Shown here piece by piece: positions 14,872 through 30,884 of a stretch of 64,000 nucleotides of DNA (position 1 is its first letter; each line of letters opens with the position of its first letter). Both the position numbers and the translations under genes were made by a program. Under the pieces are notes generated by a model. The model did not search any database and was not told where the DNA came from. It saw nothing but the letters and a program-made list of their open reading frames with translations. Source of the stretch: Actinomycetes bacterium (GTDB taxonomy: Bacteria; Actinomycetota; Thermoleophilia; BMS3ABIN01); contig JAJYLW010000014.1 in assembly GCA_021787475.1 (NCBI GenBank), positions 1-64,000 of the forward strand, in the 5' to 3' direction.

Positions 14872-16152
14872 TTGTCACCAGTTAAACCGAAGGATCAGCC
14901 GCCGGTAAAGGATCTGTGCGTCAGGGCGCAGCAGGCCTCCCGCCGGCTGGCCGGCATGTCCGGCAAGCAGAAGAACCGTGCCCTCAAGGAGATTGCTGCG
15001 GCGCTGGAGCGGCGCACAAGCGAAATCCTGCGGGAAAACCGCGATGACGTCAAAGAAGGCAAGGCTGCCCGCTTAAGCGGGGCGCTCATGGACCGGCTGA
15101 TGCTGGACGAGGACCGGATCAAGGAGATGGCCGCCGGCCTGCGCCAACTGGCCGGCCTGCCGGATCCGGTGGGGGAGGTCGTGGAGGGCAGACGGCTTCC
15201 CAATGGGCTTGAGCTTACAAAGATCCGGGTGCCGTTTGGCGTTGTTGCCGTTATTTACGAAGCGAGGCCCAATGTCACCACCGATGCCGCCGGGCTTTGC
15301 ATCAAAACCGGCAACGCCGTGATCCTCAGGGGAGGCAGCGCCTCGCTGCATTCGATTCGGATGCTGACAGAGGTGATCAGCGGCGCCCTGATTGACGCCG
15401 GTTTTCCTCCCGATACGGTGCAGTTGATTGAATCGCGTGACCGCGCCCCTTTAAAGAAGCTTCTCTCGATGAGAGAGTACGTCGATATCGTCATACCCCG
15501 CGGCGGCGAGGCGCTGAAAGAGTTTCTGATCAAGAATTCCACTATCCCGGTGATCTACGCGGCCGGCGGCAACTGCCACGTTTATGTTGACGCCAGCGCC
15601 GACCTGGAGAAAGCAGCCGCCATCGTTGTCAATGCGAAAGCGCAGCGGCCTGGAGTCTGCAACGCTGCCGAGACGCTGCTTGTCCACAAGGACGTTGCCC
15701 CTGCGTTTGCGCCCTTGATCGCCGCGGAACTGGCCGCCCGGGGTGTGAAGCTGTTTGTGACGCCGGAGTTCAGGCGGCTAGCGGGAGAAAAGACCGCGAT
15801 GGAAAAGGCGACCGACGAGCATTTCGCCACCGAGTTTCTCGATTTGAAGATAGCCGTGAAGGTTGTTGACAGCCTCGATGAAGCCGTTGAGCACATTGCC
15901 AGGTACGGCACCGGCCACTCCGAGGCGATTGTGACAGAAGAGCTGGCTGCCGCGCGCGCCTTCGCGGCGCGGGTCGATGCCGCCTGCGTTTACATCAACG
16001 CCTCCACCCGGTTCACCGACGGCGGCCAGTTCGGCATGGGCGCCGAGATTGGCATCAGCACGCAGAAGCTGCATGCCCGCGGCCCCCTCGGTTTGCGCGC
16101 GCTGACAACCACGAAATATGTGGTGATGGGGGAGGGGCAGATAAGGACATAG
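14872..16152 (+). CDS. proA: Gamma-glutamyl phosphate reductase
   Basis: 426 aa, NADPH-dependent second enzyme of proline synthesis, aldehyde dehydrogenase fold. The catalytic Cys lies in AQRPGVCNAAETLLVH; the ending GLRALTTTKYVVMGEGQIR is typical. The TTG start follows AAGGAAGGA. The stop codon TAG overlaps the first unit (AGTTCAA) of a heptamer repeat. Confidence 0.94.
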   Translation: MSPVKPKDQPPVKDLCVRAQQASRRLAGMSGKQKNRALKEIAAALERRTSEILRENRDDVKEGKAARLSGALMDRLMLDEDRIKEMAAGLRQLAGLPDPVGEVVEGRRLPNGLELTKIRVPFGVVAVIYEARPNVTTDAAGLCIKTGNAVILRGGSASLHSIRMLTEVISGALIDAGFPPDTVQLIESRDRAPLKKLLSMREYVDIVIPRGGEALKEFLIKNSTIPVIYAAGGNCHVYVDASADLEKAAAIVVNAKAQRPGVCNAAETLLVHKDVAPAFAPLIAAELAARGVKLFVTPEFRRLAGEKTAMEKATDEHFATEFLDLKIAVKVVDSLDEAVEHIARYGTGHSEAIVTEELAAARAFAARVDAACVYINASTRFTDGGQFGMGAEIGISTQKLHARGPLGLRALTTTKYVVMGEGQIRT

Positions 16153-16221
16153 TTCAAAGTCCGAGTTCAAAGTTGTTAAAATGTTTCGCCGGCCATAACT
16201 CGAAACTCGGAACTCGGGACT
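16151..16221 (+). repeat. Paired heptamer repeat, proA-nadD spacer
   Basis: AGTTCAA, AGTCCGA, GTTCAAA begins within the proA stop codon; the complementary arm AACTCGA, AACTCGG, AACTCGG, GACT (16197-16221) ends 9 nt before the nadD ATG. Both arms keep a 7-nt period. Confidence 0.65.
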
Positions 16222-16230
16222 GAGGGGTTT

Positions 16231-16830
16231 ATGAAGCTAGCCATCATGGGCGGGACCTTCAACCCGATTCATATCGGCCACCTGGTCTGCGCCGAGGAGG
16301 CCGTTTCCCAGTACGGGCTGGACCAGGTCCTGTTCATGCCCACCGGACTGCCGCCCCACAAGGAGATCCTGAATGGCGCCGGCCTGGAGGACCGCTACCG
16401 GATGTGCGCAATTGCCATTTCCGGGAACCCCCGCTTTGAAATCTCCCGGTACGAGATTGAAAAAAAGCGGGTCAGTTACACAGTTGGGACGGTCCGCCAT
16501 TTCCGCGAGCGGATGCCCGAGACCGAGCTTTTCTTCATCACGGGCGCTGATGCGGTGCTGGAGATTCTGGAATGGAAGGATCCCCGGGAGTTGCTCGCGA
16601 TGGCGACCCTGATCGCCGCCACCCGTCCCGGTTATCCCCTGAACCGGGTATCGAAGCCGCTGAGCCGGTTCCTGATAGAAAACAGGGTGAAGATCATGGA
16701 AATACCCGGAATAGGCGTCTCATCAACCATGATCAGAGGCCGTGTCTCTGGGCAAAAGTCAATCCGGTATCTCGTGTCCGAGGGCGTCCGGCAGTATATT
16801 GAGAGTGAAGGTCTCTACCGTCAAGGATAA
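16231..16830 (+). CDS. nadD: Nicotinate-nucleotide adenylyltransferase
   Basis: 199 aa, adenylates nicotinate mononucleotide in NAD synthesis. The nucleotidyltransferase signature GGTFNPIHIGHL is at 8-19 and the second motif SSTMIRGR near the C-terminus (ISSTxIR class). GAGGGG precedes the ATG. Its end overlaps the next gene by 26 nt. Confidence 0.94.
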   Translation: MKLAIMGGTFNPIHIGHLVCAEEAVSQYGLDQVLFMPTGLPPHKEILNGAGLEDRYRMCAIAISGNPRFEISRYEIEKKRVSYTVGTVRHFRERMPETELFFITGADAVLEILEWKDPRELLAMATLIAATRPGYPLNRVSKPLSRFLIENRVKIMEIPGIGVSSTMIRGRVSGQKSIRYLVSEGVRQYIESEGLYRQG

Positions 16831-18037
16831 GCGGCCTCGCAGGCATCCCGGCGCAGGCGGCCTTGCCGCCAGTCCGGTTTCGCGGAGTTCCCGCTACCGC
16901 AGCGAGAGGCTGGCCAGGCGGCGCCGGGCCAGGCAGCGGCGGCTCACTCTCTATATTCTCCTTGCCGGGTTTGCGGTTTCCGCCGCCGCGTTTGCGGCCA
17001 TATTCCTGCTGGCAAGATCAAGAGCCGCCAGCCAGGCGCCGCTTCCTGCCGCGGGCGGCGGCGGAAACGTGATTGTGACCGGCGCAGGCGCCGACGGCAA
17101 GCCAAGCCAGATCCTGCTCATGTCTCCCGGCAGCCAGGGCGGCTACAGCATTTACACGCTCCCCGTCCGGACAGTAGCCGATGCCCCCGGCCACGGCTTT
17201 CAGCTGCTGGGGGCGGTCGCCGGCCTGGGAGGTCAGCCGCTGCTCGATCAGACCGTGGCCAATCTGCTGGGTACGCCCATCCGCTACCATTTGAGTTTTG
17301 ACTGGAGCGTGGTGGAGTTTCTGGCGGCGCAAGCGGGCAGCGTTGATTTTAAAACAGACCGTCCTGTAAGCAGCGCCGACGGCTCCATCAACCTGGCTAC
17401 GGGCGACAATAACAAAGACGGCCAGGAAGCGGTATCCTGGCTGAACGCTGCCGTAAGTGACGGCAACGCCGGCCCCCGGATTCAGGCCCTCTTTTACCGC
17501 GGCCTCCATGACGCGATCATGGCCAGGACCGAGGCCGAGCGCCGCCGCCTCGCCCGGGAACTGTACCGGCGAGTCAGGACGGACATGAGCGAAGACGATT
17601 TTACCGCCTTGTTCATGGCCATGACAGAGCCCGGCAGGCCTTTCGGCGTCTGGCCCCTGCCGGTGCGGCAGGCGGGCAGCGGCGCCTCGTGGTATCTTGA
17701 GCCCCTGCCTGATGAGCTTCGGGCGCTCATGTCCGGCTCACCCGAAAACTCGACTTTCACGCTGGAAGTGCGCGGAGCCGGCGACCGGGAACTGGCCGAT
17801 GCGGTTGCCGCCCGGCTGGCGCCGCTTCGCTTCACCATGATGCCCGGAAACGGCCAGTCCGGCGCCGGTTTCGACAATACCCAGATCAGGTGCGGCAGCG
17901 ACGCGATCGGCCCCGGCAACCAGATCCACGACTTGTTGGGCAAAGGAATCGTTATCAAGGACGACACTCTCCAAAAACGGCAAATCATTGTTATTATTGG
18001 AAGTGACCTCAGTTTGCCGGACCTCCAGAAACAATAG
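16805..18037 (+). CDS. LytR-CpsA-Psr family wall protein with LytR_C domain
   Basis: About 410 aa. A very basic cytoplasmic tail (RLARRRRARQRRL), one membrane helix, then an extracytoplasmic part. LLGAVAGLGGQPLLDQTVANLLG and the following HLSFDWSVVEFLAAQ stretch resemble the LCP core that ligates glycopolymers to peptidoglycan; the C-terminal 100 residues (VRGAGDRELADAVAARL, IRCGSDA, IVIIGSDLS) match a LytR_C domain. The core is weakly conserved and some phosphate-binding arginines are not recognisable, so activity is uncertain. Position between nadD and rsfS is the usual one for LCP genes. Start GTG 16805 is a choice; the frame opens at 16742. Confidence 0.65.
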   Translation: MKVSTVKDKRPRRHPGAGGLAASPVSRSSRYRSERLARRRRARQRRLTLYILLAGFAVSAAAFAAIFLLARSRAASQAPLPAAGGGGNVIVTGAGADGKPSQILLMSPGSQGGYSIYTLPVRTVADAPGHGFQLLGAVAGLGGQPLLDQTVANLLGTPIRYHLSFDWSVVEFLAAQAGSVDFKTDRPVSSADGSINLATGDNNKDGQEAVSWLNAAVSDGNAGPRIQALFYRGLHDAIMARTEAERRRLARELYRRVRTDMSEDDFTALFMAMTEPGRPFGVWPLPVRQAGSGASWYLEPLPDELRALMSGSPENSTFTLEVRGAGDRELADAVAARLAPLRFTMMPGNGQSGAGFDNTQIRCGSDAIGPGNQIHDLLGKGIVIKDDTLQKRQIIVIIGSDLSLPDLQKQ

Positions 18038-18050
18038 CCGGGGAAAAGTA

Positions 18051-18407
18051 CTGAAAAGCGAGAAACTGATCAAAGAGATTGCCGCCGCCGCTGCCGAAAA
18101 AAAAGCGGAAGAAATCGTCATCCTGACAATGAAGGATGTTTGCTCCTTTACTGATTTCTTTGTCATCCTTACCGCCGGCAATCCCCGCCAGGCCAGAGCG
18201 ATTGCCGCAGATGTGCGCCGGCAGATGAAAAAAGCGGGCTGCTCACCGCTTCATCTAGAAGGCGAGGCCCGCAGCGACTGGATTTTGATGGATTATTTAA
18301 GCGTGGTAGTTCATATTTTCTCGCCGGCGGCACGTGATTTTTACCGCTTGGAAGTCTTGTGGAAAGACGCACCCCGCCTGGAAGTCACCGGCGTGACGGC
18401 AGGGTGA
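18051..18407 (+). CDS. rsfS: Ribosomal silencing factor RsfS
   Basis: About 118 aa from a CTG at 18051. RsfS binds L14 (uL14) and blocks 30S-50S joining in poor nutrient conditions. Visible family features are the N-terminal helix IAAAAAEKKAEEIVIL, CSFTDFFVILTAGNPRQARAIA and the WILMDYLSVVVHIF(S) core. Upstream ATG/GTG/TTG codons in frame (17988, 17997, 18003) overlap the LCP gene and would add an unrelated tail; the CTG follows GGGGA at about 8 nt and gives the family N-terminus. Confidence 0.88.
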   Translation: MKSEKLIKEIAAAAAEKKAEEIVILTMKDVCSFTDFFVILTAGNPRQARAIAADVRRQMKKAGCSPLHLEGEARSDWILMDYLSVVVHIFSPAARDFYRLEVLWKDAPRLEVTGVTAG

Positions 18408-18410
18408 GGC

Positions 18411-19421
18411 ATGAATTCGCGTGAGCGCTTCCTGGCGGTTCTCGCCGGCGAGACGCCTGACATGGTCCCGGTGGTTCCCGTCCTCGACGGCTATTTTGCG
18501 CCGAAGCTCATCGGTCGCCGCAATGACGACTGCTGGGCTGACGGCAACTGCCTGGCGGAGGCGCTGGCCGCCGCGCAACGGCAGTTTGACCACGACGGGG
18601 TGGTGGCGGAGATGGGTTTGGGGCCTGATCCCGACGTGCTGGGGTGCCGGGTCGAAATTGAGGGCAATCAGGTGCCGCTCGTGGTTGAGACGCTGGTCGA
18701 GGACGCCGGCGACCTGGCTAAAATTCCGATCCCCGATCCCTGGCGGGACGGCAAGATGGAGCCGGTCCGGCGGCTGGCGGAGCAGGTCGGCCGGGAGGCC
18801 GCCATTCTGGGATCGGTCCGCTCCCCGTTTGAGTATGCCGCCACCGTGCGCGGGCTGGCTGGTTTTTTTGCCGATTTTTACCGGGACCCTGAATTTGCGC
18901 ATCAGCTGATCGCAGCCTGCCTGCCGGCGACGCTGGCGGTGGGCAAGGCGCTGGTCCGCGCCGGGGCCGATGCGATTGTGATCAAGGATTCGTTTGCCTC
19001 CACCAGCATGATCTCCCCGGCTCATTACCGCGAATTTGCCTATCCGGCGGAAGCTGAGGCAATCGCAGCGCTGAAGGAGACAGCCCCGGTCATCCTTCAT
19101 ATCTGCCGTAACAGCCTGCCGATCTTGCCGGAAATGGCTCGCACCGGCGCCGCCGCGCTCGAGATTGACTCGCCGGTAGACCTGGAGCAGGCGCGGCAGG
19201 CGGTGGACGGAAAAGTGGTTCTTAAGGGAAACATCGACGCCGTCGCGGTCATGGAGAAGGGATCGCCTGCCGATGTGGAGAGGGCGGTGAAAGTCGCCAT
19301 GGCGGCCGCCAAGGCGGGAGGGCGGTTTATCTTAAGCACCGGCGACTCGATTCCCGCCGGTGCGCCGCTGGAAAACGTGGCCGCCCTCGTGGAGTTTGGC
19401 AGAGCGTACGGAAAGTATTAA
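18411..19421 (+). CDS. Uroporphyrinogen decarboxylase-family corrinoid methyltransferase
   Basis: 336 aa of the UroD fold in the MtaA/MtbA/CmuA-like branch. These zinc enzymes move methyl groups between a cobalamin protein and a thiol or tetrahydrofolate acceptor. HICRN (His and Cys zinc ligands), the LKGNIDAV strand and the STGDSIPAGAPLENVAAL ending are characteristic. The adjacent corrinoid protein, two nucleotides downstream, makes a methyltransferase rather than a haem decarboxylase the likely role. The methyl donor is unknown; no substrate-specific MtxB-type gene is in the window. GTGAGG precedes the ATG. Confidence 0.78.
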   Translation: MNSRERFLAVLAGETPDMVPVVPVLDGYFAPKLIGRRNDDCWADGNCLAEALAAAQRQFDHDGVVAEMGLGPDPDVLGCRVEIEGNQVPLVVETLVEDAGDLAKIPIPDPWRDGKMEPVRRLAEQVGREAAILGSVRSPFEYAATVRGLAGFFADFYRDPEFAHQLIAACLPATLAVGKALVRAGADAIVIKDSFASTSMISPAHYREFAYPAEAEAIAALKETAPVILHICRNSLPILPEMARTGAAALEIDSPVDLEQARQAVDGKVVLKGNIDAVAVMEKGSPADVERAVKVAMAAAKAGGRFILSTGDSIPAGAPLENVAALVEFGRAYGKY

Positions 19422-19423
19422 CG

Positions 19424-20059
19424 TTGGAGCTTCTGGACAGATTCAGACAGGTTTTGGTGGAGGGCGACGCCGATCAGGCCGCCCGCCTGGGCGGCGAGAT
19501 TACCGCCGCCGACCTTTCGGCGGACAGCATCCTGTCTACCCTGTCGGCGGCGATGGAGGAGGTGGGCGCCCGGTACGAGACGGGGGAATACTTCATCCCG
19601 GAGATGCTGCGCTCAGCCGCCGCCGTGGAGGCGGCGCTGCAGGTGCTGGATCCTTTCCTGTTCGAGCGAAGGGCGGACCAGGCCGGCGTCGTCGTAATCG
19701 GCACCGTCAGGGGCGACGTTCACAATATCGGCAAGAACATCATCGTCTCCGCGCTGCGGGCAGGCGGCTACAAGGTTTATGACCTGGGCGTAAATGTCTC
19801 GGCGGCGAAGTTTGCCGCCAAGGTCGGGGAGGTTGACGCCGACCTGCTGCTGCTCTCCGCCTTCACCACCTCGACAAAGCAGTCGCTCCTGGATGTGATT
19901 TCCGCCCTCGAGGCGGCCGGCCTCCGCGACCGGGTCAAAGTGGTCTCCGGCGGCGCGGCGCACTCGCCGGAGCTGGCCCGCGAGGTGGGCGTAGACGCCT
20001 TTGCCGGCGATGTCAAAAGCACGCTGGCCGTCTGCCGGGAGCTGATGGGTGGCAGTTGA
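19424..20059 (+). CDS. Corrinoid-binding protein of a methyltransferase system (MtaC/MtbC-like)
   Basis: 211 aa. Residues 1-85 form the helical cap domain (B12-binding_2 type: AMEEVGARYETGEYFIPEMLRSAA). Residues about 90-211 form the Rossmann-like cobalamin domain with GTVRGDVHNIGKNI, i.e. the DxHxxG motif whose His is the lower cobalt ligand. It would shuttle the methyl group for the UroD-type enzyme immediately upstream. TTG start, two nucleotides after that gene, so the pair is translationally linked. Confidence 0.88.
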   Translation: MELLDRFRQVLVEGDADQAARLGGEITAADLSADSILSTLSAAMEEVGARYETGEYFIPEMLRSAAAVEAALQVLDPFLFERRADQAGVVVIGTVRGDVHNIGKNIIVSALRAGGYKVYDLGVNVSAAKFAAKVGEVDADLLLLSAFTTSTKQSLLDVISALEAAGLRDRVKVVSGGAAHSPELAREVGVDAFAGDVKSTLAVCRELMGGS

Positions 20060-20142
20060 AATTGTGTGTATGCGGCGCAATTTAACTCAATTAGAGTATT
20101 GTTTATAGCATTAGTATAAGAACAGGTTTCCTGGATAAATAT

Positions 20143-20158
20143 TTGACAGCGCAGTCAA
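20143..20158. promoter_or_regulatory. Near-palindrome upstream of radical SAM gene
   Basis: TTGACAGCGCAGTCAA is a 14/16 match to its reverse complement, 25 nt before the start codon. It could be an operator, or its TTGACA a -35 box, though no good -10 follows. The spacer 20060-20182 is markedly AT-rich and holds no other feature I can support. Confidence 0.3.
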
Positions 20159-20182
20159 GGTGGAAGTTAGGGTCAGCAATAT

Positions 20183-21610
20183 ATGGTCAAGTTGAATGAT
20201 GCGACCGCGGACGCGGCATTGAGAGTGCTGCTAATCACGCCTCCATCCGGTCTTTGGAAAGGCTCAATTGAACGTCCCTGGATCTCTACGCAGCCGCTGG
20301 GGTTGGCGTACATTGCCGCGGCAGTTCGCCAGAAACATCATAATGTGATGATGCTCGACGCCTTCTCGATGGGATTATCAGCCGAGAAAATCAAGGCAGC
20401 GGTCCGGTCTTTCCGGCCCCAGGTAGTTGGCATCTCTGCCCTGACGCCCCAATGGCCCGATGCTGCCGCGGCGGCCGGGCTTGTCAAAGACGAAAGCGCT
20501 GACATGTTAATTGTAGCCGGAGGACCGCACGTCACCGCATTGCCGGAGGCAGCAGCGAGCCATCCTGCAGTTGACGTCGCTGTAGTGGGAGAGGGCGAGG
20601 AGACGATGCAGGAAATCTGCGAAGCTGTTGCGGTCGGCTCTACCGTTGACAGTATTGCCGGCACCGTCCTTGGCAGCGGCGATTCCCTGAAGCGGAATCC
20701 CCCACGCGCCCGGAATATGGACCTTGATAATCTGCCATTCCCTGCGCATGACCTGTTGCCGAAGCCGGCAATGTATAACCCATACCCGGCTTGGGGGAGG
20801 CGGGGGAAATTTTCCTGCATAATCAGCGGGCGCGGTTGCCCTTATGGCTGCAGTTTTTGTGATGTTACCACGCAGCAGGGCAAGCGCTACCGCCTGCGGA
20901 GCGCTGAAAATATCGTTAAAGAGATTATTTGGCTCAATCGGGACTTTGGTGTTTCGATGTTCTCGTTCCGCGACCCATCGATGATTTGTAACCGGAAGCG
21001 GCTGATGGAAATATGCCGGCTTATCAAGAAGCACAAACTTGACATCGCCTGGACTTGTAGCGCCCGCGCCAACGAGGTGGATCTGGAGATGCTGATACAA
21101 ATGAGAGGCGCAGGTTGCCGGTTGATCCAATACGGAATCGAAGTTGGAAACGCGGAGATGCTCTTGAGGATTAAAAAAATCACAAAAGAGCGTGTGATTG
21201 AAGCAGTGCGGCAGACCCACGCTGCAGGCATTCTGGCGCATGGTTATTTCCTTTTTGGCTTTTTGGATGAAACCAGGGAAACTCTGGCTGAGACAATTTC
21301 TTTCGCCAAGGAATTGAGGTTGGATAGCGCCGGGTTTGCGGCAATGGTTCCTTTCCCCGGCACGGAGGAATTTGAGAAACATAAGCGTGAAGGGCTGCTG
21401 ATAAGTCAGGACTGGCGCGATTATGTTCCAACCGGAAGGCCGGTATACCGCCGCCAGAATATCACAGATGACGAATTGGTAAAAGCGATCAGACGGGCTT
21501 ACCGGGAGTTTTATCTCCGGCCGCGGATTATCGCCACGCACTTGCGGCTGGTGACGAATTATCACACACTTCACAATTATTTCCGGAGCGCGCGGCAGTT
21601 CCTGGTCTGA
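20183..21610 (+). CDS. B12-binding-domain radical SAM protein
   Basis: 475 aa. An N-terminal B12-binding-like domain (about 12-150: LLITPP, QPLGLAYIAAAVRQ, GGPHVTALP, VVGEGEE) precedes a radical SAM core with the cluster motif CPYGCSFCD near 219-227 and an oxygen-independent coproporphyrinogen-like C-terminal half (YFLFGFLDET). Class B members are often C- or P-methylases, or act in lipid and natural product pathways; the substrate is unknown. The gene looks less GC-rich than its neighbours, hinting at transfer. It converges on the minus-strand radical SAM/glycosyltransferase operon. Confidence 0.85.
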   Translation: MVKLNDATADAALRVLLITPPSGLWKGSIERPWISTQPLGLAYIAAAVRQKHHNVMMLDAFSMGLSAEKIKAAVRSFRPQVVGISALTPQWPDAAAAAGLVKDESADMLIVAGGPHVTALPEAAASHPAVDVAVVGEGEETMQEICEAVAVGSTVDSIAGTVLGSGDSLKRNPPRARNMDLDNLPFPAHDLLPKPAMYNPYPAWGRRGKFSCIISGRGCPYGCSFCDVTTQQGKRYRLRSAENIVKEIIWLNRDFGVSMFSFRDPSMICNRKRLMEICRLIKKHKLDIAWTCSARANEVDLEMLIQMRGAGCRLIQYGIEVGNAEMLLRIKKITKERVIEAVRQTHAAGILAHGYFLFGFLDETRETLAETISFAKELRLDSAGFAAMVPFPGTEEFEKHKREGLLISQDWRDYVPTGRPVYRRQNITDDELVKAIRRAYREFYLRPRIIATHLRLVTNYHTLHNYFRSARQFLV

Positions 21611-21689
21611 TTTGTGGCTGGGATGGATATGCGGAAATGATGCGCCCCAGAGACAAGCAAAAGCCTGCTATCTACTAAGAAAGCCGCCC

Positions 21690-21712
21690 AAAAACAGGCT
21701 GGCAAGCCTGCC
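21690..21712 (-). terminator. Rho-independent terminator of the minus-strand operon
   Basis: On the minus strand CAGGCT, loop TGCC, AGCCTG is followed by TTTTT, starting about 13 nt after the GT39-like stop. Coordinates are 21695-21710 for the stem and 21690-21694 for the T-run complement. Confidence 0.65.
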
Positions 21713-21724
21713 ATCCGCCGCGCT

Positions 21725-23521
21725 TTAACTGCTTACCGTGTAAACCTTAAACCGCTCCAGTGGCCGGCTGGTGATCGAAAAGGGCAACCGCCCCCAGTAA
21801 GTGCCGTAAAAGCCGGCGTCGGCCGGCGGGCTCATTACCCGCACCGGCATCGACCAGTCTGCCGCCGGGGCATCCGCCAGTCGCACGCGCTTTAGCAGGG
21901 ACGGCGCCACGGGTCTCTGCATCAAGCCAGGCTCGATGATCAGATCGCCCTTTTTCGGTTCGGCGCTGTCCGCGGGCAAGTACCGGTACCCTTCCTGCTC
22001 CATGTAATGGCGGAAGCCCCACTCTCCCACAAACCAGACCGTGCCGGTCGGGTGGTAGCGGGAATTGACCGATAGGGCAAAATCCTTGTAAGCCTGAGCC
22101 AGCCGGTAGTCGGCAGCCGACAGCCACAGGCCCGCCACAAATGACATTCCGATGGCAGCCAGCGCCAGGCCCGTCAGCAGCCGCCGCGATGAAATTGCCG
22201 CTTCCGCTTCCCGGAACATAAGAAGAACCATCGGCGCAAAGACGGGCAGATAGTATCTTGTAGTTGCGTCCGGCAGGAGGACGACAACGGCCGCCAGAAT
22301 CGAGACAAGCCAGAGGGCGAGGAACAAGAAGTCGCGGTCCGGGGGCCGGCCCCTGATGCGGCTTATTGCCTGGGCCAGCCCCTCTGAAAATACGCCAATC
22401 AGTAAACAGGCGCCGGTGAAGATAAAAATGGCGAAAAGAATCGCGCTGGCAGGCGGGTAGGCCGGTGAAAGCTGGCGCCAGCCAAGCAGCGCCGCTCCTG
22501 CCGCCACGGCCGGAAGCGCCAGGTACCGCCGCCGCCGCAGCATGAAAGCGCCGGCCAGAAATGGAGGAAACACCGACGCGCCGCTCAGCTGCAGGATCAT
22601 TCCCTGAAACCGTGAGACAAGGCTGTATCCCTGGACGCTGAGACCCTGGGCGTGGGAAAATCGCGGCAGCGCCCCGTAATGGGCAAGGTTAAACCAGGTA
22701 AAGGCGGCAAAAGCCACCACCGGCAGGACGGCTGGCAGGACCGCCTCCCGCCGCAGCCGCCCCGTCTGAATCCAGGCGTATGCCGGCAGCAGCAGGATCA
22801 AGGCCAGCCCCTGATAGCCGGTGAAAACCGTCAGCGTTGTCAGTATGCTCGCGAGCGCCAGCAACGGCGGGCTGCGGCGGTCAGTTCCGTATATGTAGGC
22901 GGCGGTCGCCGCCAGCCAGAAGGCGGTCATGGGCAGATCGCCCATCAGGGTATGGGAAAGGACCATCACCGCCGGCGTGGACAGCAGCAGCAGCGCCGCC
23001 GGCAGCGCCCCCCGGGTGAAACGGCTGCCAAGGAAGAACATGGAGGCCCCGGCGATGAGCGGGAAAATTATAAAGCCGAGGTGAAACAGCGCCTCCGGCG
23101 CGCCGACCCCGCCCGCCAGCATGAAAAGGGAGATGTAGAGCTCGTCAAAGGCGGGGTGGGTATCTCTGAACGCGCCAAATTGCCTGCCCATTAAAAAATA
23201 GTTGGGAATGTGCTGCTGGAACGGGTGCGACAGGTTGTTGCGGGCAAAGTCCCAGAAAATGGCGTCGTCCAGGTGAAGCGCCTGGCCGATGAACGGCACG
23301 GTGATGGCGAGGACAAACAGAAAGATGGCGGCGAGGCTGGCCGCCAGCCCCAGCCGCGTCCGGGAAACCGACGCTGCGGCCCGGGCGCTTTCAGATCGCT
23401 GGCCCTCGAAGGCTACCCGCTTGTTTGCGGCAGCGCCATCAGCTGTTTCATCAGCCGTCCGTACATCAGTGGATTGAAAAGAATGTTGGTGACGAAATAA
23501 CACTCGTGTGAACAGTAGCAT
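21725..23521 (-). CDS. GT39-like (PMT/ArnT) membrane glycosyltransferase
   Basis: Up to 598 aa with about twelve hydrophobic segments and a C-terminal soluble domain of about 130 residues. The first periplasmic loop carries LDDAIFWDFARNN, matching the acidic DD/DE pair that is catalytic in lipid-linked sugar transferases of the GT-C fold. It would transfer a sugar from a polyprenyl phosphate carrier outside the membrane. The 5' end is uncertain: ATG 23521 or GTG 23503 overlap the upstream gene by about 100 nt, and no ATG, GTG or TTG follows that gene's stop before the first helix. Last gene of a four-gene minus-strand operon. Confidence 0.75.
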   Translation of the reverse strand: MLLFTRVLFRHQHSFQSTDVRTADETADGAAANKRVAFEGQRSESARAAASVSRTRLGLAASLAAIFLFVLAITVPFIGQALHLDDAIFWDFARNNLSHPFQQHIPNYFLMGRQFGAFRDTHPAFDELYISLFMLAGGVGAPEALFHLGFIIFPLIAGASMFFLGSRFTRGALPAALLLLSTPAVMVLSHTLMGDLPMTAFWLAATAAYIYGTDRRSPPLLALASILTTLTVFTGYQGLALILLLPAYAWIQTGRLRREAVLPAVLPVVAFAAFTWFNLAHYGALPRFSHAQGLSVQGYSLVSRFQGMILQLSGASVFPPFLAGAFMLRRRRYLALPAVAAGAALLGWRQLSPAYPPASAILFAIFIFTGACLLIGVFSEGLAQAISRIRGRPPDRDFLFLALWLVSILAAVVVLLPDATTRYYLPVFAPMVLLMFREAEAAISSRRLLTGLALAAIGMSFVAGLWLSAADYRLAQAYKDFALSVNSRYHPTGTVWFVGEWGFRHYMEQEGYRYLPADSAEPKKGDLIIEPGLMQRPVAPSLLKRVRLADAPAADWSMPVRVMSPPADAGFYGTYWGRLPFSITSRPLERFKVYTVSS

Positions 23522-24528
23522 CCCGAACTGTTGATTTGCGCCCTGACGGCGCCGGCGTTCCCGGAACGCAACACCTCCATTAAATCATAGCCGCTCTCGC
23601 GCACGTTTCCCATCCGGGAATCAAGAATCTCACAGGGAAAGACGTCCCCGACCTCGTTCATCACGGCGGCAATGCGGCCGGCCAGGCAGGGCAGCTGCCG
23701 CCGTCCCTGGCGGACGGTCTCGTAAATCAGGCGCCGCTGGACCAGGTCCTGGGCGGATTTTAGCCGCGCTAGGCTAAAATGGTACATCCTCGGGCGAGGC
23801 CCCTTCAGGTCCGTCTCCAGCCGCTCGATCGCGCATAAGTATTTTGCCAGGTCGATGCCTTTGCCGTTTCCGTCCGCCGGGCTGCCGCGAACCAGCGAGA
23901 TGGTATGGGTCTCGCACCCGGGCAGACCGTTGACAAAATCGATGATCTTTTCAATGTCGTCCTGGTTCTGGCGCAGAAAAACGGTGTTGACGCCTGTCTG
24001 CAGGTTTTGATGCCGGCGCCGCAGCCGCCGCAGTTCTTCCCACGTCTCCATGGCCTTGTCAAAACTGCCGGGCGTGTTGCGGATGCGGTCGTGTTCAGCG
24101 CCAATCCCGTCGATCGAGACCTTGATCACCACGGCGCTCTCCGGCGAGCGGGAAAGAATCTCGTCCGCTTGGGGAATGATCAGGTCTGGCGCCAGGCCGT
24201 TGGTGGGCAGCGTGATGACGACCGGCCGGCAGCTGCGGTAAAAGGCGTCAACGATATCCGCCAGGTCCCGGCGCAAGAAAATTTCCCCGCCGGAAAAGAG
24301 CAGCCACAGGAGCCCGCCCATCGAACCGGCCACCCGGCCGATCTCATCGAGGTCAAGCTCGTCGCGGCGGCTGTGCCGGTCCTGCCAGTAGAAGCAGAAC
24401 GGGCAGCGGGCATTGCAGCGCGAAGTCACAAAAAAAGTGAACTGAACCAACCTGTTCTTCAGAAAGATCTGGGGGATGTATTTTATTGGCGAGTGCATAA
24501 GGAGTTTCGCGTTCGGCGTTTCGCGCAT
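23413..24528 (-). CDS. Radical SAM/SPASM-type protein
   Basis: About 371 aa from the ATG at 24528 (alternative ATG 24498). The cluster motif CNARCPFC lies just after TFFVTSR; LLFSGGEIFLRRDL and VSIDGIGAEHDRIR are typical of the peptide- or lipid-modifying SPASM group. The C-terminal Cys-rich part (PCEILD, SGCYCSHECYF) suggests an auxiliary Fe-S site. The frame continues 79 codons upstream into the GT2 gene, which is judged spurious. CGAAACG-type heptamers span the start codon region. Substrate unknown; neighbours point to a glycan or lipid carrier. Confidence 0.83.
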   Translation of the reverse strand: MRETPNAKLLMHSPIKYIPQIFLKNRLVQFTFFVTSRCNARCPFCFYWQDRHSRRDELDLDEIGRVAGSMGGLLWLLFSGGEIFLRRDLADIVDAFYRSCRPVVITLPTNGLAPDLIIPQADEILSRSPESAVVIKVSIDGIGAEHDRIRNTPGSFDKAMETWEELRRLRRRHQNLQTGVNTVFLRQNQDDIEKIIDFVNGLPGCETHTISLVRGSPADGNGKGIDLAKYLCAIERLETDLKGPRPRMYHFSLARLKSAQDLVQRRLIYETVRQGRRQLPCLAGRIAAVMNEVGDVFPCEILDSRMGNVRESGYDLMEVLRSGNAGAVRAQINSSGCYCSHECYFVTNILFNPLMYGRLMKQLMALPQTSG

Positions 24529-24550
24529 GACCTCCGGAACGCGGAATGGC
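24497..24550 (-). repeat. Heptamer words across the radical SAM/SPASM start
   Basis: Between the GT2 stop and the downstream gene the minus strand reads CGCCATT, CCGCGTT, CCGGAGG then, after the first ATG, CGCGAAA, CGCCGAA, CGCGAAA. If 24528 is the start, the repeat encodes the residues RETPNAKLL. Confidence 0.45.
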
Positions 24551-24551
24551 G

Positions 24552-25592
24552 TTACCCGTACCGGCGCAGGATCTTCACTTCCCAAAGGTATTTTAACGTG
24601 CCAACGGCCGATCCGTAAGCGACGGCGGCGGGATAAACAAGCTGGTAATAAAGCAGCGAGCGGACCAGGAACCACCAGCCGCGCTCGCGCTTGATTAGCT
24701 GAAACAGGCTGAAGCTGGCGCCAACGTTGAGGGCGTAAAGCAGGGGGATGGGCAGCAGCAGCCACCAGATGCCCGACGCCAGCGCCGCGGCAACCAGGAT
24801 CAGGTTGAACGCCTGGGTGCCGGTGTTGACTTTCAGCTGATGTGAGGCGGCGCCGGAGTCCTTGAGCACGTCGCGGTTCTTGAGCGAGTACATCGTCCAG
24901 TACTTGCTTTTCTTGACGGCGTTCCTGATCGACCTGTTGAAATTAAAGCCAAACATGTGCCGCACCTGGATGCTGGCCGGGCGCAGCAGGCGGTGGCCGG
25001 CCTGGATCAGGCGGTGCGAGAACTCGACATCCTCGACGCTGGCCTGGTGGCCGATGAATGAATTCTCGACAAACCCGCCGAACTCTTGAAAGAGATCCTT
25101 GCGGATCGCCATGCAGTGGGTGGCGATATAATCGGGGTGCTCATTCTTGGTTTCGACGTAATGAATGTAAAGGGACTGGAAGTTGCTGAAAAAGTCCTCG
25201 TCCCAGGCGTCCTTGGTGTAGGCGCCGCCAACGCAACTGGCGCCGCTGCCGCTCAGCTTCTCAACGCAGCGCGCCATTGTCTCCGGCATAATGATGCAAT
25301 CGGCGTCAATAAAAAGAATGATCTCCCCGGCAGCCTTGCCGGAGCCAATATTACGCGCTTTCGACACCCCCATGTTTTCTTTCAGGGCGACAAGCCGGTG
25401 AGGATACCTGCCGGCAAACCCCCGCAGCACTTCCATGCAGTTGTCGGTGGAGCAATCGTTGACCAGGACAACCTCGAAATTGGGGTAGGTTGAATTGTAG
25501 ACTGCCTCAAGGACAGGACCGATGGTTTCAGCCTTGTTGTAGACTGGGATGACCACCGAGACCATCGGCGCGGAAGAAGCGGCTTTGTTCAT
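24552..25592 (-). CDS. Family 2 glycosyltransferase, membrane-anchored
   Basis: 346 aa. GT-A domain at 10-230 with VSVVIPVYNKAETI, LVNDCSTDN and the metal-binding FIDADC, then EDVEFSHRL as the acceptor-side acidic motif. Two to three C-terminal membrane helices (about 265-325). It would move a sugar from a nucleotide donor to a lipid or glycan at the inner membrane face. The ATG overlaps the upstream stop by 4 nt (ATGA), so it is co-translated. Confidence 0.87.
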   Translation of the reverse strand: MNKAASSAPMVSVVIPVYNKAETIGPVLEAVYNSTYPNFEVVLVNDCSTDNCMEVLRGFAGRYPHRLVALKENMGVSKARNIGSGKAAGEIILFIDADCIIMPETMARCVEKLSGSGASCVGGAYTKDAWDEDFFSNFQSLYIHYVETKNEHPDYIATHCMAIRKDLFQEFGGFVENSFIGHQASVEDVEFSHRLIQAGHRLLRPASIQVRHMFGFNFNRSIRNAVKKSKYWTMYSLKNRDVLKDSGAASHQLKVNTGTQAFNLILVAAALASGIWWLLLPIPLLYALNVGASFSLFQLIKRERGWWFLVRSLLYYQLVYPAAVAYGSAVGTLKYLWEVKILRRYG

Positions 25593-27058
25593 TTCACCTT
25601 CGCGGGCTGGCTTTGGTCCGGCGGCGCCGGCTTCATGGCGAGGCTGTCGCGCCTGGCCCAGAGCCAGAAGAAGCTCGCCGCTCCCTTGATTACGGTTCTG
25701 AAATCGTAGATGCTGCGCACTCCCAGCAGCCGCCGGAGGATGAAACCGGGACGGGAATAGAAGCGGCGGAAGGCGATTGTGCGCACTGCTTCGATCTGCT
25801 CCCGCGTCATCGAATAAGGGACGAATGCGCCGCCTTCGAAAGTGTAGTCATCCGTGTTTGTTGACATTGTGCCATATTTGTCAACATTGTCGTAAAGCTC
25901 AGTCCCGGGGAAAGGCGTCATCGTGTGAAAGTTTGCGTAATGCGGGTTAAGCTCAACGGCAAAGTCCACCGTTTTCAGCGCTTCTTCGTACGTCTCCCCC
26001 GGAATGCCGATGATGAAGGGCGTATAGACCTTCAGCCCCGCTTTTTTTGCCGCCGCCACGGCGGCGCGCGTCTGGTCAAGAGTCACGCCCTTGCGGAGCG
26101 TGTTCAAGTTTTTCTGGACGCCGCTTTCGGCGCCAAAGAGGATTGCCCAACAGCCGGCTTTTTTCAACTCACGAAGCAACTCAAAGTCAACGGTGTTCAC
26201 GCGCGAGGAGACATAAAAGCTAAAATCAAGTTTGAGCTCCCGGAACCGGCCGAGCAACTGCATGACCCGCTCCCGGTCGGCAGTGAAAGTCTCGTCCAGG
26301 AACCTGATCTCCCTGAAACCGTAGCGGTTCACCAGTTCCTCGACTTCACTGGCGACGTTCTCGACGCTGCGGAAGCGGATGCGGCGCTCGCCATTCATCT
26401 GGAAACAGTAAATGCAGCGGGCCTTGCAGCCACGCGAGGTCATCACGATCGCGATCGGCTTGCGCTTGTAACTCCCCGGCGGCGACTCGTACTTGTCAAA
26501 ATCCCCCAGCAGTTCCCGCCGCGGGATGGGGATGGCGTCCAGGTCCTCGATCAGCGGCCGGGGTTCGTTCTTGACAATGGCGCCGTCCCGGGACCGGAAA
26601 GCAGTCCCCGCCACTCCGGCAAGGCTGCAGCCATTTATTAACTTGTCAATCATCTCCGGGACGGTCTGCTCGCCCTCGCCGATGACAATCGAATCGAGGC
26701 TGGGGCAGTCCTGAAGGCACTTCTCTTCCACTGCGGACGGGTAAGGGCCGGCGGCAGTGACGTGGACGGATGGGTCGATGGCCTTGATGCCGGCGGCTGT
26801 TTTCTTTGCCTTGCTCCACATGGCGGCGTTGGCGGAAATGCCGACGAACCCGGGCGCAAACCGGCGCACCTGGTCGATGATCTCGGCGTGGGTCCAGAAA
26901 GCGCCGTCCACCAGCCTGACCTCGTGCCCGGCGGCCTGAATGCAGGTAGCGATATAAAGCAGTCCGAGCGGGTGCTGGTAGCTGACCGCCGATCTGGCCA
27001 CCCTGGAAGGATAGATGTCATCCGGCTTCCAGGACGGCAGGATAACCATTGATTTCAA
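25589..27058 (-). CDS. B12-binding-domain radical SAM protein, operon head
   Basis: 489 aa. N-terminal B12-binding-like domain (SYQHPLGLLYIATCIQ, VVIGEGEQT-type IVIGEGEQTVPEM), then the radical SAM motif CKARCIYC near 215-222 and a C-terminal part with FIIGIPGETYEEALKT and MTPFPGTELYD. It resembles the forward-strand radical SAM protein in architecture but is clearly divergent. It starts the four-gene minus-strand operon. The DxHxxG cobalamin motif is not visible, as is common in this class. Product unknown. Confidence 0.85.
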   Translation of the reverse strand: MKSMVILPSWKPDDIYPSRVARSAVSYQHPLGLLYIATCIQAAGHEVRLVDGAFWTHAEIIDQVRRFAPGFVGISANAAMWSKAKKTAAGIKAIDPSVHVTAAGPYPSAVEEKCLQDCPSLDSIVIGEGEQTVPEMIDKLINGCSLAGVAGTAFRSRDGAIVKNEPRPLIEDLDAIPIPRRELLGDFDKYESPPGSYKRKPIAIVMTSRGCKARCIYCFQMNGERRIRFRSVENVASEVEELVNRYGFREIRFLDETFTADRERVMQLLGRFRELKLDFSFYVSSRVNTVDFELLRELKKAGCWAILFGAESGVQKNLNTLRKGVTLDQTRAAVAAAKKAGLKVYTPFIIGIPGETYEEALKTVDFAVELNPHYANFHTMTPFPGTELYDNVDKYGTMSTNTDDYTFEGGAFVPYSMTREQIEAVRTIAFRRFYSRPGFILRRLLGVRSIYDFRTVIKGAASFFWLWARRDSLAMKPAPPDQSQPAKVK

Positions 27059-27469
27059 GCCGGCCGCCTCCTCAAAGGGCAGTTACGGAAGTGATGCTAC
27101 GTCAAAAGCATTAGCCTTTCGGCCTGGCAGTTGAGCAAGCTGGATTATTAATTAAGAAAATGAGACGCGTCATCGGGCGGAAAAAAGCAAACAAATCCCC
27201 ACGGACCTCTTTAGTAAAGTTTAGCAGAGGAGTGTAACTGTTTCTATCAGCCGAACCCAGGGACATGATCTCAATTTCCTTTGGGAAATGGATCATGTCC
27301 CTGGCTGTTGCGGCAGGCGGCAGCGAACTCATGTCCACGGGCGGTTGCTTGTCCTCCATATATCTGCTATGCTGTCTTTGCCAGCTCTCTGGCGCTGCCG
27401 GTGTGCATCTTCCGCGCGGTGCGGTATTTGTCCGGTTTTTATGGTTGACCACATTTCTATTATCATCCC
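27059..27469. other. Divergent intergenic region, no gene seen
   Basis: This 411-nt spacer lies between the minus-strand radical SAM operon and the plus-strand RACo-like gene, so it must hold both promoters. No convincing coding frame, tRNA or -35/-10 pair was found. I looked specifically for a detached ferredoxin domain upstream of the RACo-like gene and saw none. The main structure is the inverted repeat described separately. Confidence 0.5.
27257..27304. repeat. Long inverted repeat with nested stem
   Basis: CCAGGGACATGATC (27257-27270) is the exact reverse complement of 27291-27304; inside, ATTTCC (27274-27279) pairs with GGAAAT (27284-27289). The result is a hairpin of about 20 bp with a 4-nt loop. 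It resembles REP/MITE-type palindromes rather than a terminator, since no T-run follows. Confidence 0.6.
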
Positions 27470-28681
27470 TTGACCAGCGCTGAAATAATCAACCCGGCTT
27501 CAGCCGGTTACGGAGCCGCTGTCGATGTTGGCACTTCAAGCATCTGGTCGCGGCTGGTCCGGCTGGGCGACGGCGGCGCGCTTGGCACCAGGGTAATTGC
27601 CAACCCGCAGCAGGAATACGGCGCCGACATCGCCAGCCGTCTCGGAATCGCCGCCGAGCAGCCTGCGGTCAGGACGCGCCTGCACGTCCTCCTCACCCAG
27701 GCCATCAGCGATTCGCTCACCGGACTTTGCCGGGAGGCCGGCATTGACGTTGAAGAGATAGTTGACATTGTGGCGGTGGGCAACTCGGCCATGTATGCGT
27801 TTCTGCTGGATGTTGATCCGGCGCCGCTTTGCGGCACGCCTTACAACCTCAAAGAAGCGGGTGACTATGCCGGCCCCGCCACGGGACTCGGCATTGCCGC
27901 TCCCGCGGCAAACCTGTTCGTGCCCCGTCCCGTTTTCGGCTTTGTCGGCGCCGATGCGCTCGCCGATATCTTGGCGGTGGGCATGGCCGGCAGCGCCGGG
28001 ACGGAGCTGACGGTGGACGTCGGCACCAATTGCGAGATCGCGCTGGGGGGACGCGACCGAATACTGGTGGCCTCCACGCCTGCCGGCCCCGCCTACGAGG
28101 ATGCGCACATGTCTTTCGGCCTCTCGGCGACCCGGGGCGCCATTTACAAGGCCCGCCTTGAAGGGGAAAAGTTTGTTTATGAAGTGGTTGGCGGCGGCAA
28201 AGCGAAAGGAATCTGCGGCTCCGGCCTCATTGACATCATTGCAGAGATGAGACGATATAGCTGGGTGGATGGGAGCGGCCGTCTGCTGAAGCAGGGGCCG
28301 GTGGTGATAGCCGGCGGCGAGGAGCCGATCAGTATGGACCAGCATGACATCCGCTCCTTCCAGCTGGTCAAGGCCTCCGTCCATGCCGCCATCTCCGTGT
28401 TGCAAAAGAAGCGGGGGGGGGCGCAACCGGAGCGGATGCTAATCACAGGCACGTTCGGCAGTTATATCAACTTGGACAATGCCCGCCTGCTGAAGATGTT
28501 CCCGGATCTGCCCGATGACCGCGTCGAGGTGTCTGCCGACGCGGCCTGCCGGGGCGCCGCCCTGATGCTGACGCCGGCGCACCGGCGCAGCCTGGAGGAG
28601 ATCAGGTCAAAAATCAGGCATGTTCCACTGCCGCTCAACAAATCATTCCAGGATGAATTTATCCGGTTGATGGAAATGTAA
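27470..28681 (+). CDS. RACo-like corrinoid reactivating ATPase (ASKHA domain only)
   Basis: 403 aa matching the C-terminal region of RACo/DUF4445 proteins, which use ATP to reduce inactive Co(II) corrinoid proteins to Co(I). AAVDVGTSS at 15-23 is the first phosphate loop, TVDVGTNCEIAL the second and LITGTFGSYINL the third. The usual N-terminal [2Fe-2S] ferredoxin and linker domains are absent: the protein starts almost directly at the ASKHA fold. An electron donor would therefore be a separate protein. It probably services the corrinoid protein at 19.4 kb. TTG start, no ribosome site. Confidence 0.8.
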   Translation: MTSAEIINPASAGYGAAVDVGTSSIWSRLVRLGDGGALGTRVIANPQQEYGADIASRLGIAAEQPAVRTRLHVLLTQAISDSLTGLCREAGIDVEEIVDIVAVGNSAMYAFLLDVDPAPLCGTPYNLKEAGDYAGPATGLGIAAPAANLFVPRPVFGFVGADALADILAVGMAGSAGTELTVDVGTNCEIALGGRDRILVASTPAGPAYEDAHMSFGLSATRGAIYKARLEGEKFVYEVVGGGKAKGICGSGLIDIIAEMRRYSWVDGSGRLLKQGPVVIAGGEEPISMDQHDIRSFQLVKASVHAAISVLQKKRGGAQPERMLITGTFGSYINLDNARLLKMFPDLPDDRVEVSADAACRGAALMLTPAHRRSLEEIRSKIRHVPLPLNKSFQDEFIRLMEM

Positions 28682-28734
28682 AAAAGCGGATATTGGATGC
28701 TGGATTCTGGATAACCCAATATCCAATATCCGTT
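28682..28734 (+). repeat. Paired heptamer repeat after the RACo-like gene
   Basis: AAAAAGC then GGATATT, GGATGCT, GGATTCT, GGATAAC leads into the complementary ATCCAAT, ATCCG. The outer 12 bp (28687-28698 with 28721-28732) pair perfectly. The AAAGCGGA edge and GGATAAccc inner edge are both present, making this the most compact complete element. Confidence 0.7.
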
Positions 28735-28892
28735 TATTGGTTTTGTAGCGCCGCCGGAAAAAGGCTAAGATGAATTTGAACTTACACCGACTGATTTAAC
28801 AGGAATTTGCGCTCCCGTGCCTCGCTCTCTGGCTGCAGGTTGCTCTTGATCACGGACAGGAACGCTGATATCGGAAATGGAATATCAAATCG

Positions 28893-29633
28893 GTGCCTGA
28901 ATCAGGCGACGAAAACGAAACTGGAGACGCCCCCCAGCGGCAGGTTCCGCCGGACTGGCTGGGCGAGCCTTCCGGCGGCAGCGGCTGGATAACGCCGCCG
29001 CCGGACAACTGGAGCTGGGACACTGACCGTCCTGCCCCGGAGTCCAGCCTGGAAGCGGCCCCGGCCGACCTGCCGGCGGAGCTGGGGGAAGTGGCTCCTC
29101 CGGGCAAGAAGCGCAGGCTCGCGCGCTGGCTGCTTCGCGATCTGGTGATCCCGCTGGCCGTCGCTTTTGGCGTGGCGATGGCGTTTCAGGCTACCGTCGC
29201 CAAGCCATACCAGATTCCAACCGGCTCGATGATACCGACCATCCAGGAGAATGACCGCATCCTGGCTGACCGCCTCATCTATCACTTCCGCGCGATCCAT
29301 CGCGGCGACGTGATTGTCTTTAACCCGCCCGCCGATCTTCATCAGGACACGCCCTTTGTCAAGCGCGTGATCGGCCTTCCGGGGGATACGGTTGAGATCA
29401 AGCACGGCGAGGTGTTGGTAAACGGCAAGCCGTTTGTTGTCCCAAACGCGCGGAAAACGGATTACACGATGCCGGCGGAGACAGTGCCCGGCGGGCAGTT
29501 GTTTGTCCTGGGCGACAACCGCGACGAGAGCTATGACAGCCACCGCTGGGGGTTTGCCCCCATCAGTAACGTCATCGGCCGCGCCGAGATCGTCTACTGG
29601 CCGCTCAGCCACCTGCAGTTTTTGGGGAACTGA
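28893..29633 (+). CDS. lepB: Signal peptidase I
   Basis: 246 aa. A Pro/acidic-rich cytoplasmic N-terminus of about 80 residues is followed by one membrane helix (about 83-101) and the catalytic domain. Nucleophile S112 lies in PTGSMIPT and the general base K157 in VKRVIGLPGD; the GDNRDESYDSHRWG box is intact. It cleaves exported preproteins such as the WTWYD proteins here. GTG start; the GTG at 28893 has no strong ribosome site. Confidence 0.93.
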   Translation: MPESGDENETGDAPQRQVPPDWLGEPSGGSGWITPPPDNWSWDTDRPAPESSLEAAPADLPAELGEVAPPGKKRRLARWLLRDLVIPLAVAFGVAMAFQATVAKPYQIPTGSMIPTIQENDRILADRLIYHFRAIHRGDVIVFNPPADLHQDTPFVKRVIGLPGDTVEIKHGEVLVNGKPFVVPNARKTDYTMPAETVPGGQLFVLGDNRDESYDSHRWGFAPISNVIGRAEIVYWPLSHLQFLGN

Positions 29634-29640
29634 AAGCTTC

Positions 29641-29722
29641 GGGTTAAGCCGGCATCTGAGTCTGGAATCCAGCACCCGGTTTGTTGGTTTTATCCAGGAT
29701 CCAGCATCTAGAATCAAGCAAC
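29641..29722. repeat. Heptamer repeats between convergent lepB and guaB3
   Basis: Words such as ATCCAGG, ATCCAGC, ATCTAGA, ATC (about 29694-29717) keep the 7-nt period, with CGGGTT and GGTTTTATCC edges. The region serves the 3' ends of both genes. Confidence 0.55.
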
Positions 29723-29726
29723 CGGT

Positions 29727-30884
29727 TTACCCCATCCCCACGTCCTGTTCACGCTGCAGCTTCTTGCCCTCAGTCTGCAGCGCCGGCGCGACCATCACCT
29801 CCGCCTTCTGGAACGCCTGGATGTTCTCATAACCACAAGTCGCAAGCGATGTCTTAAGAGCGCCGAACAGGTTCAGCGTGCCGTCGTTCTCACGCGCCGG
29901 TCCCACGAGGATCTCTTCCAGGGAGGCTACCTGGTTTGTCTTCACGCGCGTGCCCCGTGGCAGCTGCGGATGGAAGGTGGCCATGCCCCAGTGATAGCCG
30001 CGCCCGGGGGCTTCGTAGGCGCGCGACAGCGGCGAGCCGATCATGACGCCGTCGGCGCCGCAGGCAATCGCCTTGGCGATGTCGCCGCCGGTGCGCATGC
30101 CGCCATCAGCGATCACGTTGACATATTGCCCCGTTTCCAGCAGGTGCTGCACCCGGGCGGCGGAGGCGTCGGCGACCGCGGTCGCCTGGGGAACGCCGAT
30201 GCCGAGGACGGCGCGGGTGGTGCAGGCGGCCCCAGGGCCGACACCGACAAGGACACCGACGGCGCCGGTGCGCATCAGGTGCAGCGCCGTGGTGTAGGAA
30301 GCGCAGCCGCCGACGATCACCGGCAGCGGCACCTCGGCGATAAACTTCTTCAGGTTGAGCGGCTCCACCACTGAGCTGACGTGCTCGGCGCTGACGACCG
30401 TCCCCTGGATGATGAGCACGTCGAGACCGGCGTCGAGGACCAACTGGTAATAGCGGGTGACCTTCTGCGGCGTCAGCGAAGCCGCCGCCAGCACGCCCCC
30501 CTCTTTGATCTCCTTGATCCTTTGTGTTATCAATTCTTCCTTGATCGGCTCCTGATAGATCTCCTGGAGCCCGTGAGTGGCCTGGTCGACCGGCAGGGCG
30601 GCAATTTTTTTGAGTTCTCCCTCGGCATCCTCGAAACGGGTCTGGATTCCTTCCAGGTTAAGCACCGCCATACCGCCGATTTTGCCCATCGCCACGGCGA
30701 ATTTGGGGTCGACGACCCCATCCATAGCCGAAGCCAGGCAGGGAATCTCCAGCCGGTGCGGACCAAGCTGCCAGCTGATGTCGATATCCTCGATGTCACG
30801 CGTCCGCCGGCTGGGAACGATGGCGATATCGTCCAGCCCGTAGGCGCGCCTCCCCTTCTTGCCACGGCCGATCTCTACTTCCAT
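29727..30884 (-). CDS. guaB3: GuaB3-type IMP dehydrogenase/GMP reductase family protein
   Basis: 385-aa TIM-barrel of the IMPDH/GMPR family without the CBS insertion. The catalytic cysteine is C221 in GPGAACTTR, followed by ADGGMRTGGDIAKAIACGAD (phosphate-binding) and GSPLSRAYEAPGRG. GuaB3 proteins occur beside the classical GuaB in Actinobacteria and cyanobacteria and their exact reaction is less certain. The ATG is preceded by GGAGG and, upstream, by a TCCACCA repeat in the same gene-relative orientation as elsewhere. Confidence 0.85.
   Translation of the reverse strand: MEVEIGRGKKGRRAYGLDDIAIVPSRRTRDIEDIDISWQLGPHRLEIPCLASAMDGVVDPKFAVAMGKIGGMAVLNLEGIQTRFEDAEGELKKIAALPVDQATHGLQEIYQEPIKEELITQRIKEIKEGGVLAAASLTPQKVTRYYQLVLDAGLDVLIIQGTVVSAEHVSSVVEPLNLKKFIAEVPLPVIVGGCASYTTALHLMRTGAVGVLVGVGPGAACTTRAVLGIGVPQATAVADASAARVQHLLETGQYVNVIADGGMRTGGDIAKAIACGADGVMIGSPLSRAYEAPGRGYHWGMATFHPQLPRGTRVKTNQVASLEEILVGPARENDGTLNLFGALKTSLATCGYENIQAFQKAEVMVAPALQTEGKKLQREQDVGMG

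Follow-up and report, generated by a model that had tools for sequence, protein, structure and literature searches.

Here, we describe an operon of four minus-strand genes which, with a probability of about one half, encodes a pathway toward a membrane glycolipid or a lipid-linked glycan, where a lipid-bound sugar would be edited by radical chemistry. Its first three genes, encoding a B12-dependent radical SAM (rSAM) enzyme, a GT2 glycosyltransferase, and a SPASM-like rSAM enzyme (hereafter the trio), are best read, from comparisons of their sequences across genomes, as a unit. The substrate, the order of the steps, the chemistry, and the product, including its lipid nature, are what we infer from this gene set. 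The operon lies in a window of 64,000 nucleotides, the whole stretch of DNA analyzed, which spans nearly all of one 64,148-base contig from a MAG of 1.84 Mb that is 98.7% complete. In what follows, the home family is the family of this source MAG, whose relatives bear NCBI names including Thermoleophilia, Actinomycetes, and Gaiellales bacterium, and f29 is a family in another class of the phylum (hereafter the second class). The genes of the locus are the following:

25589–27058, minus strand: B12-binding-domain rSAM enzyme, 489 aa (PF02310 and PF04055)
24552–25592, minus strand: GT2 glycosyltransferase, 346 aa (Glycos_transf_2, PF00535)
23413–24528, minus strand: rSAM enzyme with a SPASM/twitch-like C-terminal domain, 371 aa (PF04055, NirJ2/AhbD similarity)
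21725 to about 23503, minus strand: GT-C membrane glycosyltransferase of the ArnT/OST/PMT fold class, about 592 aa (predicted model)
20183–21610, plus strand: facing B12-binding rSAM gene, judged to lie outside the unit

The four minus-strand ORFs at about 21725–27058 are transcribed in the order B12 rSAM, GT2, SPASM-like rSAM, and GT-C, with intergenic spacings of −4, +23, and about −91 bp, as expected from an earlier note that had described four overlapping or tightly spaced minus-strand genes on the basis of the sequence alone. Their GC3 ranges from 0.75 to 0.78 (window GC 61%) and their dN/dS against orthologues in the genome G001 from 0.10 to 0.19, the mark of purifying selection, which together indicate that all four are real and functional genes; the same note's identification of the first three is borne out by Pfam and NCBIfam domain matches. 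The “clear terminator” that it placed after the operon could not be recovered: we found just 5-pair stems there (21713–21686, minus strand), 12 terminator-like sites in the region against 8.9 ± 2.9 in shuffles, and intergenic RNA folding no better than that of shuffles (z = +0.4), and an Rfam search of 15000–30000 returned no match. On either side of the cassette, at 18411–20059 (plus strand) and 27470–28681 (plus strand), lie corrinoid genes present in nearly all family genomes, which encode an MtaA-like methyltransferase (URO-D), a methyltransferase-type corrinoid protein, and a RACo-type corrinoid activase, and which look like one methyltransferase system split by the cassette.

A third rSAM gene had also been noted as facing the operon, and it does so on the plus strand at a distance of 114 bp; it does not belong to the unit. 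It occurs in one to three tandem copies across relatives, as a single orthologue in some and, in others (L055, 5496–10099; L056, 11675–16251; L062), together with one or two additional copies, and is replaced by a paralogue of 33–36% identity in G001, G002, G003, and G007. Its GC3 is 0.62 against the 0.75–0.78 of the cassette genes, and its distances correlate with those of the trio at only 0.55–0.65 within the home family. We rejected it as a member on these four grounds, namely copy number, paralogue replacement, GC3, and weaker distance correlation. Against the HpnJ profile, it scores 194.9 bits for a cut-off of 577.6.

The first enzyme of the operon, whose start is either TTG at 27058 or ATG at 27049, combines an N-terminal B12-binding domain (PF02310, E 2e-21) with an rSAM domain (PF04055, E 4e-25) harboring a CX3CX2C cluster motif (C211/C215/C218) that is invariant in both classes, which makes it a B12-dependent rSAM enzyme. 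With a dN/dS of 0.10 (vs the G001 orthologue), it retains 76–88% identity in the home family and 53–56% in the second class. Its best solved relatives are AprD4 (E 2e-32, the nearest by sequence), then 9ccb and OxsB, a relatedness that leans towards a non-methylating chemistry. The likeness to AprD4 bears mainly on the rSAM barrel: the score against that family is 102 bits for a cut-off of 500, and aminoglycoside genes are absent nearby. The residues facing cobalt were compared with Asn186 of OxsB, Trp76 of TokK, and Arg69 of TsrM; N77, which aligns with Asn186 of OxsB, does not vary across the home family but is not preserved in the second class, and this lower-axial position was set aside as a predictor of methylation. 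The best NCBIfam match is HpnJ (TIGR03471), at 227.5 bits, far under the cut-off of 577.6. More generally, no cassette gene belongs to a family whose function is known, contrary to the possibility, raised alongside the earlier note, that each would be assigned to a known and unrelated one. The source genome holds about 11 B12 rSAM matches in total, and one of its clusters (L095, 4751–15927) brings together a GT2-like gene with another three B12 rSAM genes, of which two lie in tandem.

The GT2 gene overlaps the B12 rSAM gene upstream of it by 4 bp, and its product matches PF00535 (E 1.2e-31), with a DXD motif at D96/D98, an ED pair at E187-D188, and, from hydropathy, a hydrophobic C-terminal segment at 264–282. 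It retains 62–82% identity in the home family and 42% in the second class. The ED pair, together with the DADC motif, suggests that the acceptor may be a hydroxyl group. From a comparative perspective, a GT2 acting inside and a GT-C acting outside recall ArnC/ArnT and their undecaprenyl-phosphate-linked aminoarabinose; however, where polyprenyl-phosphate sugar synthases have a DXDxQ-like motif, the cassette GT2 has DADC, along with the ED pair, its GT-C partner resembles ArnT at the level of the fold only (15% identity), and the Arn pathway has no rSAM enzymes.

The next enzyme, most likely starting at ATG 24528 and not at 24765, matches PF04055 (E 1e-17) and shows NirJ2/AhbD similarity in NCBIfam, with its cluster motif at C38/C42/C45. 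The canonical SPASM motif comprises seven cysteines (CX9-15GX4C ... CX2CX5CX3C ... C). Here, the first half is present (C281-x12-G294-x4-C299) and the second half takes the form C337-x-C339-x3-C343, amounting to five cysteines in all instead of the full motif, and both halves are invariant in the two classes. On this basis, the protein reads as a SPASM/twitch-like rSAM enzyme. It has the rSAM barrel, the CX12GX4C motif, and additional invariant cysteines in common with NirJ, AhbD, BlsE, MoaA, and anSME, but differs from such enzymes by its five C-terminal invariant cysteines with a last CXCX3C group, and scores far under every equivalog cut-off. A low-confidence model (pLDDT 53) matched MoaA, NifB, and anSME folds, and the second-class proteins are 48–50% identical to that of the window. 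In two home relatives (G013 and G016), another locus holds a GT2 gene, 26–27% identical to that of the window, and immediately after it a SPASM rSAM gene (32%), with neither a B12 rSAM nor a GT-C gene, and G009 carries the same pair elsewhere, its GT2 frame being less clearly delimited (L140, 7970–10054; L141, 8512–10596; L142, 7457 onwards). This recurrence of stand-alone paralogous pairs argues that GT2 and the SPASM rSAM are likely the core of the system.

The ORF of the fourth gene opens at 23521, but where its translation truly begins is uncertain, since the SPASM gene, read in a different frame, covers the first ~30 codons. Its product matched no Pfam or NCBIfam profile at E 0.001, including those of PMT, PMT_2, and ArnT (GT39/GT83). 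Its predicted model (pLDDT 77) found as best solved match, with Foldseek, the undecaprenyl phosphate-bound form of ArnT of Cupriavidus (E 7.6e-7), and all matches at E ≤ 0.001, among which ArnT, AglB, OST, PMT, and ALG9, are GT-C enzymes or complexes containing one. Conserved HxDD and RDTHP motifs, with H83, D85, and D86 invariant, add to the predicted fold the early acidic pair expected of the class. The model thus supports a GT-C fold with ArnT as its best match; of the GT39-like transferase announced by the earlier note, the fold stands on this predicted structure, and the assignment to GT39 by sequence profile does not. Identity within the home family is 45–77%, and a scan of genome contigs returned matches in this family only; in the class sample, orthologues were found in 20 of the 299 genomes, that is 19 from the home family and one marginal match elsewhere. 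In three f29 genomes, the B12 rSAM gene has a PMT_2-type GT-C gene upstream of it; this GT-C gene is not orthologous to the window gene by BLAST, and with an hhalign probability of only 71% orthology between the classes was not demonstrable. The GT-C partner may therefore be a recurring but exchangeable component. The family, source genome included, also has GT-C paralogues at further loci, with as many as three arranged in tandem (L097, 2316–7417; L102, 8283–13344; L094, 5770–7404).

How could these enzymes work together? In the bacteriohopanetetrol cyclitol ether pathway, the glycosyltransferase HpnI loads a sugar on a lipid that HpnJ, a non-methylating cobalamin rSAM enzyme, then rebuilds (PMC12583986; PMC13142503), and the cassette likewise associates a glycosyltransferase that would act on a membrane lipid with a cobalamin rSAM enzyme, the SPASM-like rSAM and the GT-C being additional to it. 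By analogy with HpnI/HpnK/HpnJ, we propose that the GT2, anchored to the membrane through the hydrophobic segment at its C terminus, would transfer a sugar from a nucleotide donor onto the hydroxyl of a non-hopanoid lipid at the cytoplasmic face. The SPASM-like rSAM would then act on the loaded sugar or its product, through epimerization, oxidation, or dehydration, after which the B12 rSAM could carry out a more demanding reaction on that same group (deoxygenation, ring contraction, C–C bond formation, or methylation). Once flipped, the product might be extended or transferred on the outer face by the GT-C using a polyprenyl-phosphate sugar. Genes for sugar-nucleotide synthesis, a flippase, or a lipid backbone are not found in the operon. 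The earlier suggestion of a modified lipid-linked glycan or unusual membrane lipid is still the best reading, given the tightness of the operon and the presence of the trio in a second class, but a link to hopanoids or tetraether synthases is not supported. In its most specific form, with two rSAM enzymes rebuilding a lipid-bound sugar in succession and an ArnT-fold enzyme completing it outside, as an undescribed pathway toward a new class of glycolipids or lipid-linked glycans, we would place this proposal at somewhat less than even odds. The literature yielded no described pathway for this cassette, and nothing on the lineage.

Alternatively, the rSAM enzymes might modify the lipid part itself, by methylating its acyl or isoprenoid chains, forming rings in them, or cross-linking them, leaving the glycosyltransferases to decorate the head group only. 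B12 rSAM enzymes do modify lipids elsewhere, as in the GDGT ring synthase and the ladderane enzymes (PMC13142503; PMC8941075), and the cassette enzyme weakly matches a ladderane-type family. Yet its scores are far under the cut-offs of the lipid families in NCBIfam (100 of 650 bits for HpnR, 100 of 360 bits for ladderane), none of 19 genomes holds a tetraether synthase Tes (NF045702) over cut-off, the cassette SPASM gene reaching 31 bits, and the recurring GT2–SPASM pair favors the sugar over the tail, which leaves this explanation unlikely.

The substrates could also be soluble nucleotide sugars, in which case the cassette would provide one rare sugar destined for a surface polysaccharide or a glycoprotein. 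Such a role would agree with the match of the SPASM-like rSAM profile to cytosylglucuronate decarboxylase and with the proximity of the B12 rSAM to AprD4, an apramycin-pathway enzyme whose substrate is a free aminoglycoside intermediate. We nonetheless consider it decidedly unlikely, as sugar-nucleotide enzymes, a polymerase, and a flippase are absent from the operon and the recurrent neighbor of the SPASM rSAM is a GT2, not a nucleotide-sugar enzyme.

A further question is whether the genes belong together at all or have separate functions and stand side by side just through slow change of gene order. The cassette sits at one place in every home-family genome except G017 (an 85%-complete MAG), intact on one contig in 13 and cut by contig ends in five (G002, G006, G011, G012, and G014), and the SPASM enzyme is found in 18 of the 299 genomes of the class sample, all from this family. 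However, gene order is conserved there over tens of kb, and neighboring housekeeping genes (nadD, LCP, rsfS, signal peptidase, and a GuaB-like gene) keep their order as well, so home-family synteny is weak evidence of function, for the link to the GT-C gene included. The second class is more informative in this regard. Among 397 genomes of the phylum, strong orthologues of the SPASM enzyme were detected in 12 (seven from the home family and five from f29) and those of the B12 rSAM in 11, every one of which also has the SPASM enzyme. All f29 genomes with the B12 rSAM hold the GT2 and the SPASM enzyme nearby, in layouts that are convergent in G386 and G406 and colinear in G355, and with the B12 rSAM about 9 kb off in G344; G484 carries the SPASM gene with neither a B12 rSAM nor an adjacent GT2. 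The co-occurrence has a Fisher p of about 1e-20 when relatedness is ignored, and of 0.015 inside the patchy f29 alone. These reshuffled layouts imply that linkage of the trio in f29 is not merely inherited synteny. In addition, pairwise distances in the home family correlate at r = 0.83–0.91 within the trio and at r = 0.54–0.71 with the neighboring RACo gene. Taken together, co-occurrence, reshuffling, and distance correlation are what favor a functional unit; the trio has for the most part not separated in relatives, as it might have if the grouping seen in the earlier note were fortuitous, even though its layouts differ. Mere slowness of gene-order change is hence improbable as an overall explanation, mostly refuted for the trio and possible for the GT-C gene. 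In f29, a conserved block encoding DsrE-like proteins, a GT-C of the PMT_2 type, a YedE-type sulfur transporter, and TusA precedes the B12 rSAM gene (L122, 1184–7801; L126, 193–6587; L137, 3573–10039), and in G386 and G406 a PRK07208-type FAD oxidoreductase precedes it. Outside the phylum, no relative was found among viral contigs, and a plasmid collection gave only generic rSAM matches (25–31%), the best being a Parabacteroides plasmid gene next to one that resembles glycosyltransferases and carries a lipid glycosylation annotation, at a locus with neither a GT2 nor a B12 rSAM.

Both rSAM superfamilies include RiPP enzymes, and the two rSAM enzymes might thus mature a peptide that the GT2 glycosylates; this is very improbable, since no conserved precursor ORF lies in the flanking gaps, where the sole conserved small ORF is antisense to the start of the B12 rSAM gene, and a GT-C membrane enzyme would be unexpected in such a pathway. 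Lastly, a hopanoid head-group pathway of the HpnI/HpnK/HpnJ type, hinted at by HpnJ being the best match of the B12 rSAM, is practically eliminated, barring an uptake of hopanoids from outside, by a score of 227 bits for a cut-off of 577, by the lack of an HpnK-type deacetylase among the cassette genes, and by squalene-hopene cyclase (TIGR01507) exceeding its cut-off in 0 of 12 family genomes, with no match in the 98.7%-complete source genome, which, as far as the genomes show, rules out a self-made hopanoid as acceptor.

Returning to the radical editing of a lipid-bound sugar, such chemistry on lipid-bound sugars or head groups is, to our knowledge, established in very few cases, namely HpnJ and calditol synthase. 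The three-enzyme unit common to two uncultured actinobacterial classes offers a defined set to express and assay; its product could serve as a taxon-specific lipid biomarker and would provide one more function for the many cobalamin rSAM enzymes that are still unassigned.
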